Shown here in pieces: positions 1 through 7,888 of a DNA stretch of 64,000 nt (within the stretch, counting starts at the first letter, position 1; each line of letters starts with the position of its first letter). The notes under the pieces are model-generated. The model saw nothing but the letters and a program-made list of their open reading frames with translations. It searched no databases and was not told where the DNA came from. The stretch is from the NCBI RefSeq assembly GCF_003050935.1, contig NZ_QAOX01000012.1, positions 62,001 to 126,000 of the forward strand, in the 5' to 3' direction. A program made the translations under genes and the position numbers. This DNA comes from Luteibacter sp. OK325. GTDB lineage: Bacteria; Pseudomonadota; Gammaproteobacteria; Xanthomonadales; Rhodanobacteraceae.

Positions 1-138
1 CCCGCCCACGCCGATGACGCACACGTGCGCGTTGGCGAGGCGGTCCAGGGTGCCGCGGCCGTAGAGCCGCTCGATGCCGGCGAAACGTTCGGCCTGGGCC
101 GTACTCACGGGTATCTCGGTGTGGGGAATGACAGTCAT
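1..138 (-). CDS. tcdA: TcdA/CsdL, tRNA threonylcarbamoyladenosine dehydratase (N-terminal part)
   Basis: Only the first 46 codons lie in the window; the gene runs off the left edge. The translation starts MTVIPHTEIP, continues with RFAGIERLYG and ends in HVCVIGVGG. This is the start of the E1-like ThiF/MoeB fold: the RF-G-RLYG segment, then the glycine-rich nucleotide-binding turn. Family members cyclise the t6A37 modification of ANN-decoding tRNAs in an ATP-dependent reaction. The ATG lies at 138 and the gene is divergent from the cytochrome gene. MoeB/ThiF relatives share the glycine turn, but the RLYG segment points to TcdA. Confidence 0.85.
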   Translation of the reverse strand, partial: MTVIPHTEIPVSTAQAERFAGIERLYGRGTLDRLANAHVCVIGVGG

Positions 139-202: not shown

Positions 203-592
203 ATGCGCGCGCTGCTTCTCGTCATCCTGGGCCTTGCCGTGGGCGCCATGGGCGCTACGTTCGCCTTGTCGGCCCTTCGCCAGGGCACGCCCTTCCACAG
301 TGGCGTCATGGCCGTGATGCAGCACCACATGGGCGCACTTCGGGCCAACGTGCGGGCGAAGCAATGCGATGCCAAGGGCAACGCCAGCCATCTGGCGCGC
401 ATGCGCGAGACCGCCGGCGACATCCGCGACGCTTTCCCTGAGATGGAAGCCTCGTTCTTCCAGGTCGACGACACCCTGCTCACGGCGCTCGACGGCGCCG
501 TCGCCGCCGCGCCGACAACCTGTGAGGCCCTGGTGGCCGCGTTGAAACCGGTAGGCGACGCCTGCCAGTCCTGTCACCAGCAGTTCCGCTGA
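203..592 (+). CDS. Small membrane-anchored cytochrome c (class II-like, C-terminal CxxCH)
   Basis: A 129-aa protein with an N-terminal hydrophobic stretch (about residues 3-22, signal peptide or anchor). A helical middle follows, and a single haem-binding motif CQSCH lies at residues 121-125, almost at the C-terminus. That placement and size resemble the four-helix cytochrome c' class. The stop codon is one base before the start of the sensor kinase at 594, so the two are almost certainly cotranscribed. A c-type haem protein heading a quorum-sensing style operon is unusual and could supply redox or gas input (inference). The exact family is not certain. Confidence 0.75.
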   Translation: MRALLLVILGLAVGAMGATFALSALRQGTPFHSGVMAVMQHHMGALRANVRAKQCDAKGNASHLARMRETAGDIRDAFPEMEASFFQVDDTLLTALDGAVAAAPTTCEALVAALKPVGDACQSCHQQFR

Positions 593-593
593 C

Positions 594-1964
594 ATGACCG
601 CGTTACCGCCAGACAGGCCGGCCGGTTTCCTGCGCATGCAGTGGTGGCTGCTCGTGCGCGCCATGGCGCGTTTCGAAACGACCATGTTCCTGCGCACTCG
701 CTATTCGCAGCCGAAGATGGTGGCGATCGGCGTGGTGGGCAGCTTCTGCCTGGCCGTCTATTACCCGGTCTGGGCCTACCTGTTTCCGCAGCCCTACGAA
801 AACCTGCCCATGCGGCTGGTTTGCAGCGCCACCTTCATCCCATTGGCGTTGCTGCCCTGGTGGCCGCGTCGCCTGCGTACGCACCTGCCCACGTACTGGT
901 ACTTCGCCATGACGGTGGCGATGCCCTTCTTTGTCGGCTACATGACCCTGCGCAATGCCACGCCGGCGTGGCTGATGACCCACCTGGCCTGCGTGATGCT
1001 GCTGATGATGCTGTTCGACATCGTCAGCTTCCTGCTCGTCTTCAGCATCGGCAGCTTGCTCGCGGGCGTGGTCTTCGTGCTTTCCCCCGAGGCGCACCTG
1101 CATACGCAGACGATGCTCGAGTACATTCCACTGCTGTTGTTCGGCATGGTCGGCGGTGCCACCTGCACGGTTTCCGCGACGATGGCCGAGCAATCGCGCA
1201 TCGAAGCGCTGACCGCCGCCTCGAACAATATCGCCCACGAGCTGCGCACGCCGCTCGGCTCGCTGCGTATCGCGGCACGCGCCGTGGCGCGTTTCATGCC
1301 GGACCTGATCCGCAGCCACCGTCTGGCCGAGGGCCATGGACTGCCCGTGCCGGAGCTTCGCGCGCAGAACCTGCATGCGCTGGAGCGCAGCATCGGCGTC
1401 ATGGAGCGCGAGGTCACCTATGCCAATACCATCATCGACATGCTGCTGCTCTCCGCCCGCCCGATCGGCGAAGTGCCGCTGATTCCACTGACTGCCCGTG
1501 AATGCGTGGAGCAGGCTTTGCGCCGGTTTCCCTATGGCTCACGCGCTGAACGCGAGCGGATCACCCTGTCGCCCACGGGTGACTTTCCCCTCCTTGGCGA
1601 GGAGAGCCTGGTGGTCCACGTGCTGTTCAATCTCCTGCGCAATGCACTTTTTCATACCGATCGGGCCGGCAAGGGCGACATCGGCGTGTTCATCGAGCCC
1701 GGTGAACGGGCCAGCCGCATCCGTGTCTACGACACCGGCCCGGGCATCCCGCCGGACGTTGTTCCCCGTATTTTCAACCGCTTCTACTCGTATTCGAGCG
1801 ACAGCCCGGGTACCGGTGCGATCACCGGGCTAGGAATAGGTCTCGCTTTTTGCCGCGCGGCGATGGAGCATATGGGAGGTGGCATCGTCTGCCGAACCAA
1901 TCTGGGTGAATTCACCGAATTCACCCTAACCTTTCCGCATGCGGAGACCGGGGACCGGCAGTGA
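594..1964 (+). CDS. lqsS: Six-helix sensor histidine kinase, LqsS/CqsS-like
   Basis: A 456-aa kinase. About six hydrophobic segments occupy residues 45-190 with no large periplasmic domain, followed by an H-box (NNIAHELRTPLGS, His215). The ATPase part has an N-box (FNLLRNALFHT), a G1 box (DTGPGIPP) and a G2 box (GLGIGLAF). No receiver domain is attached, as in Legionella LqsS and unlike the hybrid Vibrio CqsS. It follows the cytochrome gene by one base and overlaps the response regulator. With an LqsA/CqsA-type synthase downstream, the likely ligand is an alpha-hydroxyketone (inference from context). A generic kinase cannot be excluded from its own sequence alone. Confidence 0.82.
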   Translation: MTALPPDRPAGFLRMQWWLLVRAMARFETTMFLRTRYSQPKMVAIGVVGSFCLAVYYPVWAYLFPQPYENLPMRLVCSATFIPLALLPWWPRRLRTHLPTYWYFAMTVAMPFFVGYMTLRNATPAWLMTHLACVMLLMMLFDIVSFLLVFSIGSLLAGVVFVLSPEAHLHTQTMLEYIPLLLFGMVGGATCTVSATMAEQSRIEALTAASNNIAHELRTPLGSLRIAARAVARFMPDLIRSHRLAEGHGLPVPELRAQNLHALERSIGVMEREVTYANTIIDMLLLSARPIGEVPLIPLTARECVEQALRRFPYGSRAERERITLSPTGDFPLLGEESLVVHVLFNLLRNALFHTDRAGKGDIGVFIEPGERASRIRVYDTGPGIPPDVVPRIFNRFYSYSSDSPGTGAITGLGIGLAFCRAAMEHMGGGIVCRTNLGEFTEFTLTFPHAETGDRQ

Positions 1965-3001
1965 TGACGTTGAACTCGCAGGGCGATATCCAGCCCTTCC
2001 ACTTTCCAACAACGACGTTCCTCGTGGACGACCACGAGGAGTACCTCGACGTCGTGCCGCTCCTGCTCGATCCGATGGTCCGCGTGCGCACCTTCAGTTC
2101 GCCGCGAAGCGCGCTGGCCACCCTGGGTAACAACGGCAGTCGCCCGGTCCCGGGCGGCGGCTGGCTGTATCGCTGGAAGGATCGCCCTTCCGAGACCCAG
2201 GAGCTGGTGGCCCTCGATATCGACTCGATCCATCGCGTGGTTTACGACCCGGAGCGCTTCGCGGAGATTTCCGTGGTGGTGGTCGACCAGGCCATGCCCG
2301 AGATGGACGGCATCACGTTCTGCAAGCGCTTGCCGAATCCGCATATCGGCAAGATCCTGTTGACCGGCCGCGCGGACGATGCCACGGCCATCGATGCCTT
2401 CAATTCGGGCGTCATTGACCGTTTCATCCGCAAGAACGACCCCCTGGCCATCGAAAAGCTGCAAACGGCCATCACCGAACTGCAGCGTCGTTACTTCGAG
2501 CGGGCCAGCGCTTTCGTTGCCGAAACCCTGGCGCTGGGCAATTTCCGCTTTCTCCGTGACCCGGCGTTCCGCGAGGTCCTGCAGAGCGTCACGGCCACGT
2601 TCCAGCCGGTGGAGTGCTATGTGCACTGCAATCCCACCGGACTGCTGCTGATCGACGCCTGGGGTATCGGTCGCTTCCTTCTCGTCCAGACCGACGAGGA
2701 CCTGCGTACCCACTATGAAATTGCGGCAGATCTGGGCGCCCCCCAGACCGTCCTCGACGCCCTCCGCGGCGGCGAGGCACTGCCCTGGTTCCGCTCCCGC
2801 GACGGCTTCTACCACAAGGGCGTGGAGAATCCGGAAGCCCACATGTACCCCGCGACGGCGGTTTCCGGCGAACAGTGGTACTACTACGCGCTGATCGACG
2901 ACGTGGAGCGCTTCCGGCTGCAACACATCAAGTCGTACCGGAGCTGGCTGCGCGAGCAGGACCTGAGCCTCTCTGCCGACAGCAGGCCGCGTTTCATCTA
3001 A
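1964..3001 (+). CDS. lqsR: LqsR-like response regulator with non-DNA-binding output domain
   Basis: A 345-aa regulator. The receiver domain begins with FLVDDHEEYLD (acidic pair) and has its phospho-acceptor in VVVVDQAMPEMDG at Asp108, unusually late because of an insertion of about 50 residues (roughly 45-100). LLTGRADD and RFIRKND supply the Thr and Lys switch residues. The C-terminal 190 residues show no helix-turn-helix, GGDEF or ATPase motif. From memory, Legionella LqsR also has its acceptor near position 108 and a nuclease-like output fold. The ATG at 1964 overlaps the kinase stop (TGATG); a GTG at 1961 is an alternative. Cognate partner of the kinase by position. Confidence 0.82.
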   Translation: MTLNSQGDIQPFHFPTTTFLVDDHEEYLDVVPLLLDPMVRVRTFSSPRSALATLGNNGSRPVPGGGWLYRWKDRPSETQELVALDIDSIHRVVYDPERFAEISVVVVDQAMPEMDGITFCKRLPNPHIGKILLTGRADDATAIDAFNSGVIDRFIRKNDPLAIEKLQTAITELQRRYFERASAFVAETLALGNFRFLRDPAFREVLQSVTATFQPVECYVHCNPTGLLLIDAWGIGRFLLVQTDEDLRTHYEIAADLGAPQTVLDALRGGEALPWFRSRDGFYHKGVENPEAHMYPATAVSGEQWYYYALIDDVERFRLQHIKSYRSWLREQDLSLSADSRPRFI

Positions 3002-3023
3002 TCGGGCTCATTTCTCAATCTGG

Positions 3024-3068
3024 AGGACGCCTTCGTACCGGACCATCCGGTATGCCAGGCGTCCTTTG
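3024..3068 (+). terminator. Intrinsic terminator after the response regulator
   Basis: Nested inverted repeats: outer arms AGGACGCC (3024-3031) and GGCGTCCT (3058-3065), inner arms TACCGGA and TCCGGTA (3036-3042/3046-3052) with a three-base loop. A short T run (3065-3067) follows. It lies 22 bp after the lqsR stop and before the synthase gene, so it may separate the two transcripts or allow partial read-through. Confidence 0.6.
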
Positions 3069-3132
3069 TCGTGCGTGGCTCCGCGGTCGTTCCGACGCCG
3101 GGGCCTGGCGACGTCTCTCTTAGCAATGGCAC

Positions 3133-3170
3133 GAGGCCGAAGTCCGTTCGCGGACTTCGCAGGACGCCTC
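3133..3170 (+). promoter_or_regulatory. Stem-loop in the leader of the autoinducer synthase gene
   Basis: A perfect 8-bp stem GAAGTCCG/CGGACTTC (3139-3146/3151-3158) closed by a TTCG tetraloop, flanked by a second pairing GAGGC/GCCTC (3133-3137/3166-3170). It has no T tract and sits about 100 bp before the synthase ATG. It could be an mRNA-stabilising leader element, a small-RNA contact or part of a small RNA. The role is inferred only from position. Confidence 0.45.
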
Positions 3171-3274
3171 TCTCATCTTCATGCGTCTGCCTGGGCGAGG
3201 CCGACGTGCGTGCGCCGTCCGCGTGGGCGGCGCCGTGGATATCGCCCATCCCCTTGCCAGAGAGAGAGGTCACC

Positions 3275-4537
3275 ATGGAAAACGTTTCCGTCCTGCATCG
3301 CGTCGCCCGAGCACCGGCACTTCCCGAATTCGTTCAACGCAGGGTCGACAAATTTCACAACGAACGGGTTGCCATCGACTGGGGTGGCCGTCACATTTTG
3401 CGGGGACGGAAGGCCACCGATGCCGACCTGATGCTGCAGAGCAACGATTACCTGGCCATCGCCGGGCATCCCGCCATCGTGGAAGCACAGCGCGAGGCAC
3501 TGGCCACGGGAGGCCTCGGCATGATGATGTCGGCGCTGTTCCAGCAGCACGCGGACGATCCGCTGCACCGCGTAGAGGGGGAACTCGCACGCGCCGTCGG
3601 CAGTGAGGACGGCATCCTCGCCCAGTCCGGATTTGCCGCCAACGTGGGGCTTATCCAGTCGATCGCTGGCGAACGTGTGCCGGTGTACGTCGACATGCTG
3701 GCTCACGCCTCGCTGTGGGAAGGGGTCCGTAGCGCCGGCGCCAGGGCGGTTTCCGTGCTGCACAACGACATGACCCATCTGGAGCGCCAGGTCATGCGCC
3801 ATGGCCCCGGGGTCATCGTCGTCGACGCCGTGTACAGCACCAACGGCAGCGTGGCACCGCTGGTCGACATCGCCCGGCTTTCCCATGAGCACGGCTGCGT
3901 GCTGGTGGTCGACGAGTCGCATTCGCTCGGCACGCATGGAGCGCGTGGCGAAGGCCTCGTGGCCAGCCTGGGGCTCAACCACCGTGTCCACTTCATCACG
4001 GCGAGCCTGGCCAAGGCCTATTGCTCGCGCGCCGGTTTCATCGCCTGCACCACCGCCTTCAAGGACTACTTCGGCTGCGAGGCACTTCCGGCGATCTTCA
4101 GCTCGTCGCTTCTTCCCCACGAGCTGGCCGGCCTGTCCGCCTCGCACCGGGTGATCCAGTCCGAAAGCTGGCGACGCCAGCGCCTGAGGCAGGTGACGCG
4201 TCACGTGCGCAGCGAGCTCACCGAACTGGGCTACCCCATCGCCGACGGCACCGAACAGATCGTGGCGTTCGAGGCTGGCGTGGAACTCCTTACCGGACAC
4301 GTACGTGACGTGATGGAGCGTCACGGCGTGTTCGGTTCGGTGTTCAGCGCACCGGCGACCACGGCAAACCGTTCACTGCTGCGCCTGACGCTCAATGCGG
4401 GCATGAGCGACGCCGATGTGGAACGCCTGGTCGAGGTGTGCCGCACGGCACGCGGCGAGATGGACTTGCCGTCGTGGAGCGCGACGCGCCGGTCCACGCG
4501 GGATGCCGCCCGGGCGCCTTCCGCGGAAGTGGCCTGA
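3275..4537 (+). CDS. lqsA: CqsA/LqsA-type alpha-hydroxyketone autoinducer synthase
   Basis: A 420-aa PLP-dependent alpha-oxoamine synthase family protein. Segments close to remembered Vibrio CqsA occur in order: LQSNDYLAIAGHP, HGPGVIVVDAVYST, VDESHSLGTHG, FITASLAKAYCSRAG with the PLP lysine at residue 247, PAIFSSSLLPHE, and GVFGSVFSAPATTANRS. These separate it from KBL and BioF relatives. Family members condense an acyl-CoA with an amino substrate to give alpha-hydroxy/amino-ketone signals (CAI-1, LAI-1). The ATG at 3275 follows AGAGAGAGG; an upstream in-frame extension covers the leader and is rejected. It is downstream of a matching kinase/regulator pair. The acyl chain length of the product cannot be told. 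Confidence 0.9.
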   Translation: MENVSVLHRVARAPALPEFVQRRVDKFHNERVAIDWGGRHILRGRKATDADLMLQSNDYLAIAGHPAIVEAQREALATGGLGMMMSALFQQHADDPLHRVEGELARAVGSEDGILAQSGFAANVGLIQSIAGERVPVYVDMLAHASLWEGVRSAGARAVSVLHNDMTHLERQVMRHGPGVIVVDAVYSTNGSVAPLVDIARLSHEHGCVLVVDESHSLGTHGARGEGLVASLGLNHRVHFITASLAKAYCSRAGFIACTTAFKDYFGCEALPAIFSSSLLPHELAGLSASHRVIQSESWRRQRLRQVTRHVRSELTELGYPIADGTEQIVAFEAGVELLTGHVRDVMERHGVFGSVFSAPATTANRSLLRLTLNAGMSDADVERLVEVCRTARGEMDLPSWSATRRSTRDAARAPSAEVA

Positions 4538-4566: not shown

Positions 4567-4872
4567 TCAGCGCAGCGAGACGCGCCCGCGCAGGATGTCC
4601 CAGAACATCGCCCAGTCACCCATCAGGCTATAGAGGGGATAGCGGAAGGTGGCCGGGCGATTCTTCTCGAACACGAAGTGCCCCACCCATGCGAAGCCGT
4701 AGCCGCCGACCAGCGCCAGCAGCAGCCAGCGTGGCTGGCCGGTGGCGACGAGCATCGCCAGTGCCACGAGAACGACCCAACTTCCCGCGAAATGCAGGCG
4801 CCGGCAGCGCGCGTCCGAATGCTCGCCCAGGTAATAGGGATAGAAATCACGGAAGCTGGCAAAGCGTGCCAT
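4567..4872 (-). CDS. Mpo1/DUF962-family membrane protein
   Basis: A 101-aa protein with FYPYYLGEHSDARCRRLHFAGS near the start, two central hydrophobic segments (about residues 28-62) and GHFVFEKNRPATF. This is the DUF962 layout, in which conserved His residues (GEHS, LHF, GHF) would bind iron. The yeast relative Mpo1 is a 2-hydroxy fatty acid dioxygenase; the bacterial role is not established. The ATG at 4872 is preferred over the GTG immediately before it. Convergent with the synthase gene, 29 bp apart. Confidence 0.82.
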   Translation of the reverse strand: MARFASFRDFYPYYLGEHSDARCRRLHFAGSWVVLVALAMLVATGQPRWLLLALVGGYGFAWVGHFVFEKNRPATFRYPLYSLMGDWAMFWDILRGRVSLR

Positions 4873-4884
4873 CACGGACTCCGT

Positions 4885-5754
4885 TCAATACGTCGGCAGG
4901 GGAATGCGCTCGTACTCGTCGCCGGGAACGATCGGAAAACGGCCTTCCGACCACTCGACCTTGGCCGCCTCGATCATCTCCGGCGAACTCGCGACGAAAT
5001 TCCACCACAGATGGCGCTCGCCATCGAGTGGCGCGCCACCGAAGAGCATGACCAGGGAGGGCTCGCGAGCGGTGAGCACCGGCGGTTCGCCGTCATAGGC
5101 CACGCCCATGTCCAGGGCACCCAGTTCGAGGTCGCCAAAATGCGCGGCGCCTTCGACCACATAGGCGCCCCACTCCGCGTGCTGCGCCGGCATGGTCAGC
5201 GTCGCGCCAGCTTCGAGGCGCGCTTCCACGAAAAACATCGGTGCGTAGACGCGCACCGGTGATGTCACGCCAAAGGCATCGCCGGCGATGACCACCAGGC
5301 TGGCGCCATCGCGCCTCACCTTGGGCAGGGTGTCTGCACCGTGGTGGTGAAACTCGGGATCGATACGCTCGTGCGACCTGGGCAGGGCCACCCATACCTG
5401 GATGCCATGCAGGTTCTGCCCGTGGTGACGCTCGTCCGGAGGTGTGCGCTCGGAATGCACGATGCCCTTGCCCGCCGTCATCCAGTTCACGTCACCCGGA
5501 TGGATATCGACGGCACTGCCGAGGCTGTCCCGGTGGCGGATCGCGCCGGCGAACAGCCAGGTCACGGTGGCCAGGCCGATATGCGGGTGTGGACGCACGT
5601 CCATGCCGGTGTCTTCGCCAAAGGCAGCCGGACCCATCTGGTCGAAGAAGACAAACGGCCCGACGTGCCGGGCCTTCAGGTGCGGCAACATGCGACGCAC
5701 GACGAACCCGCCACCCAGATCGCGCTGCTTGCCGTCGATGGGGACTGTCGTCAT
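4885..5754 (-). CDS. Pirin family protein
   Basis: A 289-aa bicupin. The N-terminal cupin carries the pirin metal motif: HPHIGLATVTWLFAG, then HRDSLG, a GDVNWMTAGKGIVHSE segment and HGIQVWVALP. The C-terminal part (LFGGAPLDGERHLWWNFVASS) is the usual pirin C-terminal cupin end. Bacterial pirins include quercetin dioxygenases and redox-linked regulators, so the substrate is open. The ATG at 5754 follows GGAG at a good distance; a 10-codon upstream extension is rejected. It lies 12 bp before the Mpo1-like gene in the same direction, probably one transcript. Confidence 0.88.
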   Translation of the reverse strand: MTTVPIDGKQRDLGGGFVVRRMLPHLKARHVGPFVFFDQMGPAAFGEDTGMDVRPHPHIGLATVTWLFAGAIRHRDSLGSAVDIHPGDVNWMTAGKGIVHSERTPPDERHHGQNLHGIQVWVALPRSHERIDPEFHHHGADTLPKVRRDGASLVVIAGDAFGVTSPVRVYAPMFFVEARLEAGATLTMPAQHAEWGAYVVEGAAHFGDLELGALDMGVAYDGEPPVLTAREPSLVMLFGGAPLDGERHLWWNFVASSPEMIEAAKVEWSEGRFPIVPGDEYERIPLPTY

Positions 5755-5799
5755 GGGAAATGCTCCGGGTGTCGTAAACCTCAAGCGTAGCCGATGCGC

Positions 5800-6762: not shown

Positions 6763-6966
6763 TTACTTCGGATTGACGTTATCCGCCTGCGGGCCCTTCT
6801 GGCCCTGGGTCACGGTGTACTCAACCTTCTGACCTTCCTGCAGCGACTTGAAGCCGTTGCCCTGGATCGAACGGAAATGGACGAACACGTCCGGGCCGCC
6901 CTCATCCTGAGTAATGAAGCCAAAGCCCTTTGCATCGTTGAACCACTTAACAGTACCAGTTGCCAT
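6763..6966 (-). CDS. Cold-shock protein (CspA family)
   Basis: A 67-aa OB-fold RNA chaperone. RNP1 (KGFGFITQ) and RNP2 (DVFVHFRSI) are both present, and the family start [17 protein letters not shown] fixes the ATG at 6966; a longer in-frame start is rejected. It binds single-stranded RNA/DNA and melts mRNA structure. The leader is long, AT-rich and structured, as is usual for this family. Confidence 0.95.
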
Positions 6967-7290
6967 CACACACACCTCTATCCAACACTCGAAAACCCGG
7001 CTCGCGAGCCGGCGACTTACTGGGAATGCAGGACCGGGTGAGGCGATGGAGCGTAAACTTCGCGCTTACATCGGGCCACTCGCGTGACCGCGCAGACACA
7101 GTAAGGTGGATGATAACCATATTTGGCGCGAGTTATGTAGGGGAATGCCTACATAGGACGAATTTTTGACGTCTATCACGACTTTTTTCGTGAAGAAAGC
7201 CATTTTCTTAGGAATTTTTCCGCTCTTGCGGCTCTTGCGGGTCTGGCGCCTCGCGCCTTCGCCGATGAATCGGCCCCCACAACAGGCATG
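6967..7290 (-). promoter_or_regulatory. Long structured leader/promoter region of the first cold-shock gene
   Basis: No gene is seen in these 324 bp. A 16-bp palindrome CCGGCTCGCGAGCCGG (6997-7012) lies 30 bp before the ATG and on the minus strand is followed by GTTTTC, so it resembles a weak terminator in the leader. An inverted repeat TATGTAGG/CCTACATA (7134-7141/7148-7155) could be an operator. An AT-rich stretch (about 7105-7220) probably holds the promoter. One REP-like unit lies at 7259-7280. Confidence 0.5.
7259..7280. repeat. REP-like unit, single copy
   Basis: One copy of the dispersed palindromic unit: core GCCGATGAATCGGC followed by CCCCAC, one base off the usual CTCCCAC end. It lies between two cold-shock genes, just beyond the terminator of the second. 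Confidence 0.6.
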
Positions 7291-7344: not shown

Positions 7345-7554
7345 TTACGCCTTGTTGACTTCTTCAGCCTGCAGACCCTTCTGGCCGTTGACGACCTTGA
7401 AGGAGACCTTCTCGCCTTCGGCGAGGGACTTGAAGCCGTTGCCCTGGATAGCGCGGAAGTGAACAAACACGTCCGGGCCGTTCTCACGGGAGATAAAGCC
7501 GAAGCCCTTGGCGTCGTTGAACCACTTGACGGTGCCGATTTCACGATCCGACAT
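7345..7554 (-). CDS. Cold-shock protein (CspA family), second copy
   Basis: A 69-aa OB-fold protein beginning [20 protein letters not shown], with RNP1 KGFGFISR and RNP2 DVFVHFRAI. It is a paralogue of the neighbouring cold-shock protein with a different N-terminus and tail. The ATG at 7554 is chosen by family alignment. Its leader contains the hairpin GACGATC/GATCGTC (7591-7597/7603-7609). The remaining upstream gap to the lipoprotein gene at 7889 shows no other gene. Confidence 0.95.
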
Positions 7555-7888
7555 AGAAACACTCCAATACATTGTGTAGCGAATAAAACCGACGATCGAA
7601 GTGATCGTCGCTGGAACTGGTGTGCAAGGAAACGCGAGGAGCGAAGCGATGTTGCGGATCCGTGATCAGCTGCATCGGGTCAACGTAACTCTATGACCCC
7701 GGCAAACACAGTCGGCGAACTATACTCGTCCCTCCGGTAAATAGCGATGGCACCCCCTCAAGGCCCCGTCCGCGGCGCCCTGACGCTACGTTCACCCCCT
7801 GGCGGCACATGCTTGCGCCCCGTCGCACCCTCGATGCGACTTTTCGCCTACCATCCTTCCACGCCAAGCCCAAGGGGGACCGACGACC

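Follow-up and report, generated by a model that had tools for sequence, protein, structure and literature searches.

Most research on signalling by alpha-hydroxyketones concerns Legionella and Vibrio, and Janthinobacterium has received some attention. Synthases of the CqsA/LqsA type use acyl-coenzyme A (acyl-CoA) and S-adenosylmethionine (SAM), and the tail-length preference of the systems is set by a kinase residue, F175 in V. harveyi and C170 in V. cholerae (PMC3285556). Phosphate flows in such systems via histidine and aspartate residues (PMC5289986). The Legionella Lqs genes are arranged as lqsA-lqsR-hdeD-lqsS. The Jqs system of Janthinobacterium (jqsA, jqsS, jqsR) is an environmental three-gene system with an LqsR homologue, in which the order by locus numbers is jqsA-jqsS-jqsR and for which the available passages of the report mention no leader RNA; the same passages describe the V. 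cholerae cluster as having no LqsR homologue (PMC3566124). In Ralstonia, the LqsR-family regulator PhcX was kept where the synthase was lost and has moved to the phc genes (PMC10653808). Among the matches listed in a search of the open-access literature, there was nothing on Lqs in Luteibacter or other Rhodanobacteraceae, on a leader RNA of lqsA or cqsA, or on LqsS-LqsR pairs without a synthase.

In this article, we describe a locus of this type in Luteibacter sp. OK325, located in a stretch of 64,000 nucleotides (contig NZ_QAOX01000012.1, positions 62,001 to 126,000, hereafter the window) of the 4.94-Mb genome. We consider it likely that an Lqs/Cqs cassette of kinase, regulator, and synthase genes occupies a fixed chromosomal site in Luteibacter, that a conserved leader, proposed to hold synthase translation low, precedes the synthase gene, that the adjacent cytochrome c' lies outside the signalling module, and that two sister genera have only the receiver half. 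The cassette shares with Legionella Lqs a synthase, a membrane kinase, and a separate LqsR-type regulator. It differs in that the genes are codirectional in the order kinase-regulator-synthase, in that an RNA leader and no gene lies between regulator and synthase, and in its fixed position next to the genes for TcdA and cytochrome c'. The deviation from the Legionella order, already pointed out in a preliminary description of this DNA, was thus observed, there being no hdeD between regulator and kinase; the order and direction are also found in one (L123) of 23 loci outside the family and are therefore not unique. The V. campbellii kinase carries a C-terminal part, which we take to be receiver-like, and differs in this from the Luteibacter kinase.

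Synthase, kinase, and regulator

All four genes listed in the preliminary description were recovered, and its central proposal, an alpha-hydroxyketone quorum-sensing locus, stands: on the plus strand of the window the cytochrome c' gene is followed by genes for an LqsS/CqsS-type kinase, an LqsR-type regulator, and a CqsA/LqsA-type synthase; Mpo1-like and pirin genes come next, both on the minus strand. The synthase gene (3275..4537, plus strand, ATG start) encodes 420 amino acids. Its product scores 538 bits against NF005526 ("alpha-hydroxyketone-type quorum-sensing autoinducer synthase"; equivalog cut-off 428) and 233 bits against the bioF model, below the cut-off of 426. The nearest solved structure is V. 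cholerae CqsA, with 173 of 377 aligned residues identical; K247, the lysine binding pyridoxal phosphate, is aligned with K236 of that protein, in agreement with the lysine named earlier, and of the nine residues that PMC3285556 gives for the acyl pocket, six are identical. The possibility that the enzyme would cluster with KBL/BioF was examined in a quick tree, subject to a program warning about the meeting of long branches: 35 NF005526-type rows and 13 BioF/KBL-type rows fall on opposite sides of a branch with an SH-aLRT (Shimodaira-Hasegawa-like approximate likelihood ratio test) value of 100, and three paralogues from the genome of the window (L002-L004) group with BioF/KBL. The nearest named synthase is that of Luteibacter sp. 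dw_328 (93% identical). The close named loci comprise 12 of 14 from Luteibacter (81-93% identity), Pinirhizobacter soli (77%), and Oleiagrimonas sp. C23AA (73%). Across the family, a synthase above the cut-off is present in 30 of 197 genomes, including all 19 sampled Luteibacter genomes. In G010, a Luteibacter genome, there is an additional, diverged synthase (L083:6995-8209), which at 470 bits also exceeds the cut-off; no kinase, regulator, or leader was found near it, and a frame about 1.8 kb downstream resembles a type VI secretion sheath protein.

The sensor histidine kinase (594..1964, plus strand, 456 amino acids) matches HATPase_c with an expectation value (E) of 1.1e-20, the HisKA match being below its cut-off. 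It can be aligned through both sensor and kinase parts with 24 other kinases, of which two come from Vibrio records and lie beside synthases; 31 columns of this alignment are invariant, including the phospho-acceptor H215 and the sensor residues W60, P65, Q66, Y101, and N121. A Kyte-Doolittle scan gave five to six candidate membrane stretches, two of them overlapping, and six helices are plausible by homology to CqsS. The tail-length column, located via the numbering of the V. campbellii protein, holds cysteine in the window; across the aligned rows it is cysteine in Luteibacter (five rows), g11, and g12 (genera without a name here are given as g with a number), phenylalanine in five rows of g14, and serine in two rows of g2. 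By analogy with V. cholerae, which also has cysteine there (PMC3285556), the window kinase would be expected to prefer a tail of about ten carbons or to show a relaxed preference. The kinase gene overlaps by four bases with that of the regulator (1961..3001, plus strand, GTG start), whose residues 10-335 match PDB entry 6sy9 (file name "Response regulator", which we take to be LqsR) with a phmmer E of 3.9e-50. D109 is aligned with an aspartate of the 6sy9 chain, so that the trait of the Lqs subtype, a separate LqsR-type regulator with an aligned phospho-acceptor aspartate, is present. From what is known of these families, the synthase would join acyl-CoA and SAM to an enamine and from there yield a hydroxyketone similar to CAI-1 or LAI-1, and the membrane kinase would sense this compound and alter the phosphate flow to the regulator.

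The leader of the synthase mRNA

According to the preliminary description, the synthase gene lies directly behind those of the kinase and the regulator. The order was found as described; the 273 bases between regulator and synthase, on which that description is silent, are not empty and contain a structured, non-coding mRNA leader (3112..3274, plus strand, as are all its parts). At its 5' end, a distal CUCUCU anti-Shine-Dalgarno segment (3112..3121) is predicted to pair with the Shine-Dalgarno region. An extra hairpin, GAGGC...GCCUC (3133..3170), is predicted by folding, and a proximal CCUCUCUC segment (3167..3174) is a possible alternative partner. Next are hairpin P1 with the loop UGGGCGA (3183..3207), hairpin P2 (3212..3233), and the sequence UCGCCC (3242..3247), which as 3' partner of the P1 loop would form a pseudoknot; the Shine-Dalgarno region AGAGAGAGAGG (3259..3269), predicted to be buried, precedes the start codon.

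Luteibacter leaders were aligned, 18 at first and then 22, and this alignment contains P1, the GGGCGA loop of which hardly varies, P2, the loop-complementary UCGCCC tail, and AGAGAGA before the ATG. For the structure of 24 pairs formed by P1, P2, and the pseudoknot, 90.7% of the alignment cells pair, compared with 33-51% when the structure is slid by one to three columns; the former figure is favoured by the fact that the structure was picked after the alignment had been viewed. Thirteen pairs changed on both sides (6.4 in shuffles), namely eight of nine in P2 (86.5% of cells paired), four of nine in P1 (91.1%), and one of the six in the pseudoknot (96.2%), where the change occurs in one sequence, a further pair changed on one side, two show breaks only, and two are invariant. 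The covariation score was 0.271 versus 0.175 in shuffles, and none of 500 shuffles was as high on any of five measures.

Burial of the ribosome-binding site was predicted by folding. In the window, the long-range pairing of the Shine-Dalgarno region is 0.87 versus 0.46 in shuffles, of which three of 60 were as high; over 33 leaders the mean is 0.754 versus 0.362, with 30 leaders above their shuffles. Fold energies of about -65 to -93 kcal/mol over 187 bases indicate very high stability. Because stop codons lie in frame upstream of the synthase ATG in 16 of the 33 leaders within 130 bases and in 27 within 273 bases, the leader is regarded as non-coding, and an N-terminal extension of the synthase was rejected on the same grounds, although the frame in the window itself is open (back to 3071 as judged from the window, and to 276 bases in the count of stops). 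Neither a simple terminator (terminator scan) nor a promoter-like site was detected in the gap before the synthase, and no Rfam family exceeded its gathering score on positions 2900-3400 (mir-1460: 18.2 bits, gathering score 74, E 2.5).

Four other genera (g2, g11, g12, and g14) have a similar fold ahead of the synthase. RNAalifold predicted for 11 of their leaders an outer helix with the ribosome site, P1, P2, and a further helix of three pairs, in the same order of helices as in Luteibacter; without the three-pair helix, 89.6% of the cells in this alignment pair, versus 39-45% when slid. A covariance model built from these 11 leaders and thus free of Luteibacter rows was searched against 633,101 bases of 48 loci and gave nine matches at E up to 1 (four at E up to 0.01), all of them synthase leaders, with an E of 0.13 for the leader in the window. 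In the 197 family genomes, searched with stricter filters, 13 matches had an E up to 0.01, the thirteenth of which was weak and located in G122. The model built from Luteibacter leaders found exactly one match per genome (E up to 0.05) in 23 of 23 Luteibacter genomes. Judged by contig coordinates, 22 of the matches coincide with rows of the model; the remaining one, in G940 (E 1.6e-18), ends at the synthase ATG after tcdA, cytochrome, kinase, and regulator.

Several observations weigh against a conserved leader that buries the ribosome site. The rows are related by descent, so that the p-values overstate; support for the pseudoknot is confined to Luteibacter and comes from one compensatory change; and three of the 33 leaders (L073, L074, and L015) have no helix burying the ribosome site. 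L074, from g11, is also the leader that fits the fold least well. In the 11-leader alignment, two of the five covariation measures were not above shuffles (69/500 and 300/500), and no pair of the outer helix changed on both sides, so that this helix rests on thermodynamics and conservation. The model from the other genera recovered nine of 21 Luteibacter-type leaders in the 48 loci, and 11 of its 12 leader matches in the family are its own rows, the other being the G193 leader. The Luteibacter model had weak matches to 2 of 11 leaders from other genera (E 0.5-0.6), and three of its matches lay away from synthase leaders (E 0.07-0.21). Outside the family, the former model had no match and the latter a single one, downstream of the L127 synthase (E 0.21). 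Moreover, the ribosome-site pairing before synthases from outside the family was 0.519 versus 0.359 in shuffles, with 11 of 16 above (20 tried); since pairing is raised there as well, the burial is perhaps not special to this leader.

In the mechanism that we propose, the leader would bury the ribosome-binding site, hold synthase translation low, and open on some signal, be it a metabolite, a protein, a small RNA, or temperature; signal output would then be adjusted post-transcriptionally and separately from the receptor genes. Binding of CsrA/RsmA or of a small RNA, with the fold merely presenting the site, appears somewhat unlikely. In L. pneumophila, two A(N)GGA sites in the lqsR leader are bound by CsrA, with reduced translation as the outcome (PMC5338858); this speaks for such a platform and means that RNA-level control of Lqs has a precedent at another gene. 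RUGGA or AGGGA motifs do follow P2 in some leaders, but the GGA is not conserved (it is absent, for example, in L085, L093, L095, L096, and L099), and CsrA sites as the conserved core of the leader were rejected for this reason. The leader could also be a new class of pseudoknot riboswitch that gates translation in response to a metabolite linked to synthesis (SAM, by-products, or the hydroxyketone), with the genera devoid of a synthase being dedicated listeners that overhear producers, a combination which we judge unlikely. In SAM-II, preQ1-II, and similar riboswitches, a pseudoknot is located directly before the ribosome-binding site, and the leader resembles them in this placement but has no Rfam match; its conserved fold was observed, while an expression platform is predicted from folding. 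An RNA thermometer, in which the CUCUCU/GAGAGA helix melts on warming, would be consistent with the direct pairing of the ribosome-binding site, but such a device requires neither covarying P1 and P2 hairpins nor a pseudoknot outside the melting helix, and together with the great stability of the folds this makes it quite improbable.

The cytochrome c' gene and the fixed chromosomal site

The CxxCH protein reported one base upstream of the kinase was confirmed with respect to both the gap and the motif near its C-terminus. The gene (203..592, plus strand, 129 amino acids) encodes a cytochrome c' (PF01322 Cytochrom_C_2: E 2.2e-9, 38.7 bits, cut-off 26.5) with one hydrophobic N-terminal membrane stretch (residues 4-22). 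Beside C121, C124, and H125, residues C55 and C107 are invariant in 21 of 21 aligned family cytochromes, possibly reflecting a C55-C107 disulfide in a membrane-anchored cytochrome c'. The preliminary description had further regarded this protein as a partner of the signalling locus, which was not borne out: the cytochrome is family-wide, it keeps the same neighbourhood where there is no cassette, and its presence is not associated with that of the synthase (Fisher p 0.21, or 0.54 without a weak match in G027). It is present in 175 of the 197 family genomes (E up to 1e-5), as a single match in 166 of them. Twenty further cytochrome loci were read, mostly one per genus; two (L177 and L178) are receiver-only, one (L195) belongs to a split cassette, and in the other 17 neither kinase, regulator, nor synthase was found. 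In these cassette-free loci, the cytochrome stands beside tcdA in 15; in 12 it neighbours the Mpo1-like gene, at distances of up to about 230 bases. One or both are adjacent in 16, and L187 has neither adjacent. Two of them (L183 and L184) come from g12, a genus in which another genome (G034) carries the cassette. On a plain reading, tcdA-cytochrome-Mpo1-pirin appears to be an old neighbourhood of the family, at one place of which the cassette sits.

A feeding of redox, nitric oxide, or carbon monoxide information into the kinase by the cytochrome is therefore highly improbable. Cytochromes c' do bind nitric oxide and carbon monoxide, and the cytochrome gene lies upstream of the kinase gene in 28 of 30 synthase-bearing family genomes, including G036 with locus L195; the two genes are thus mostly neighbours in relatives, and the earlier idea is not refuted in the literal sense set for it. 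The adjacency, however, follows from the occupation of a fixed site by the cassette. The cytochrome is missing at the site in two cassette-bearing genomes (G027 and G047, loci L073 and L087), was not seen at 23 loci outside the family, some of which are incomplete, and is separated from the kinase by one base in three Luteibacter genomes including that of the window but by roughly 120-420 bases, depending on the start chosen, in g2 and g14. The one-base gap, together with two promoter-like sites before the cytochrome only (128-175; 0.6 expected in 5 kb), suggests that in Luteibacter it is probably co-transcribed with the kinase, although it would lie outside the signalling module.

The window starts within the fixed upstream neighbour, a tcdA-like gene of the ThiF family on the minus strand, the 5' end of which occupies 1..138 and which runs off the window (L071:6323-7138; Pfam ThiF E 1.2e-37). 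The ancestral downstream neighbours are the Mpo1-like gene (4567..4875, minus strand, PF06127) and the pirin gene (4885..5784, minus strand). The former was considered as a signal-degrading enzyme, as it directly follows the synthase in 17 of 19 Luteibacter loci and also in those of Pinirhizobacter and Oleiagrimonas, and was rejected in view of its position beside the cytochrome in the 12 cassette-free loci, its distance of more than 4 kb in g2, and the fact that it was not found near the g14 loci or in L093 and L095. No paper naming Mpo1 was among the 20 matches listed, out of 240, for signal breakdown. Pirin was rejected on the same grounds. The split cassette of G036 lies on two contigs (L077 and L195), with unrelated frames, one presumably integrase-like, at the expected kinase position on the L077 side. 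Two genes with cold-shock domains (Pfam CSD) are located near each other at 6763-6975 and 7345-7572 of the window (minus strand), 2-3 kb downstream of the synthase.

Kinase and regulator in genera without a synthase

Regulators of the LqsR type (E below 1e-150) occur in 41 of the 197 family genomes. These are the 30 synthase-bearing genomes, G114 with a partial synthase match that ends at a contig end, and ten genomes without a synthase above the cut-off, comprising all four sampled genomes of g4 and all six of g6 (loci L177, L178, and L226-L233). In each of the ten, kinase and regulator occupy this same site, preceded by tcdA and the cytochrome, whereas PhcX has left its original place. The Mpo1-like gene lies within about 160 bases in g6, and about 1.8 kb intervene at the four g4 loci, an interval filled in L177 by what we take to be a peptidase-like frame. 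In a tree of kinase and regulator (30 rows), the ten receiver-only rows form one clade nested among the synthase-bearing rows, and holding the latter together was rejected by the approximately unbiased test (p 0.0056; the outgroup branches are long). This placement argues for one loss of the synthase rather than for its never having been present, so that, most simply, a single event would have removed synthase and leader from the two sister genera and left them the receiver half. Distant LqsS/LqsR-like pairs of about 35% identity occur in G094 and G194 (loci L235 and L236), with neither tcdA nor the cytochrome nearby.

The median ratios of nonsynonymous to synonymous substitution rates for the kinase are 0.188 in g6, 0.094 in g4, 0.115 in Luteibacter, and 0.117 in g14, and those for the regulator 0.094, 0.052, 0.041, and 0.061, respectively; for the sensor part they are 0.238 in g6, 0.136 in Luteibacter, and 0.155 in g14. 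Judged by these ratios, kinase and regulator are under purifying selection since the loss of the synthase, and the values of g6, the highest of the four groups, may indicate relaxed constraint. It is a real, if tentative, possibility that the receiver-only genera use the pair for a purpose other than hydroxyketone sensing, a rewiring such as was proposed for PhcX, an LqsR-family regulator decoupled from Lqs (PMC10653808). The raised ratio of the g6 sensor part and the tail-length column, which holds alanine in ten of ten receiver-only kinases and cysteine in Luteibacter, point in this direction, but the sensor core residues are retained in two aligned receiver-only rows, the medians for kinase and regulator are low in both genera, and the genes contain no internal stops, the stops in two regulator rows being natural ends.

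By its sequence, the locus is a new member of the Lqs/Cqs kind; its leader is a candidate for a new cis-regulatory element, and a derivative with only the receiver half occurs in two sister genera. The cytochrome teaches that a conserved neighbour can mimic a partner when it is merely the edge of a fixed site. Luteibacter, a largely environmental and culturable genus, is suited to tests of whether RNA determines the level of signal output, and the sister genera to tests of whether bacteria retain a quorum-sensing receptor once they no longer make the signal.

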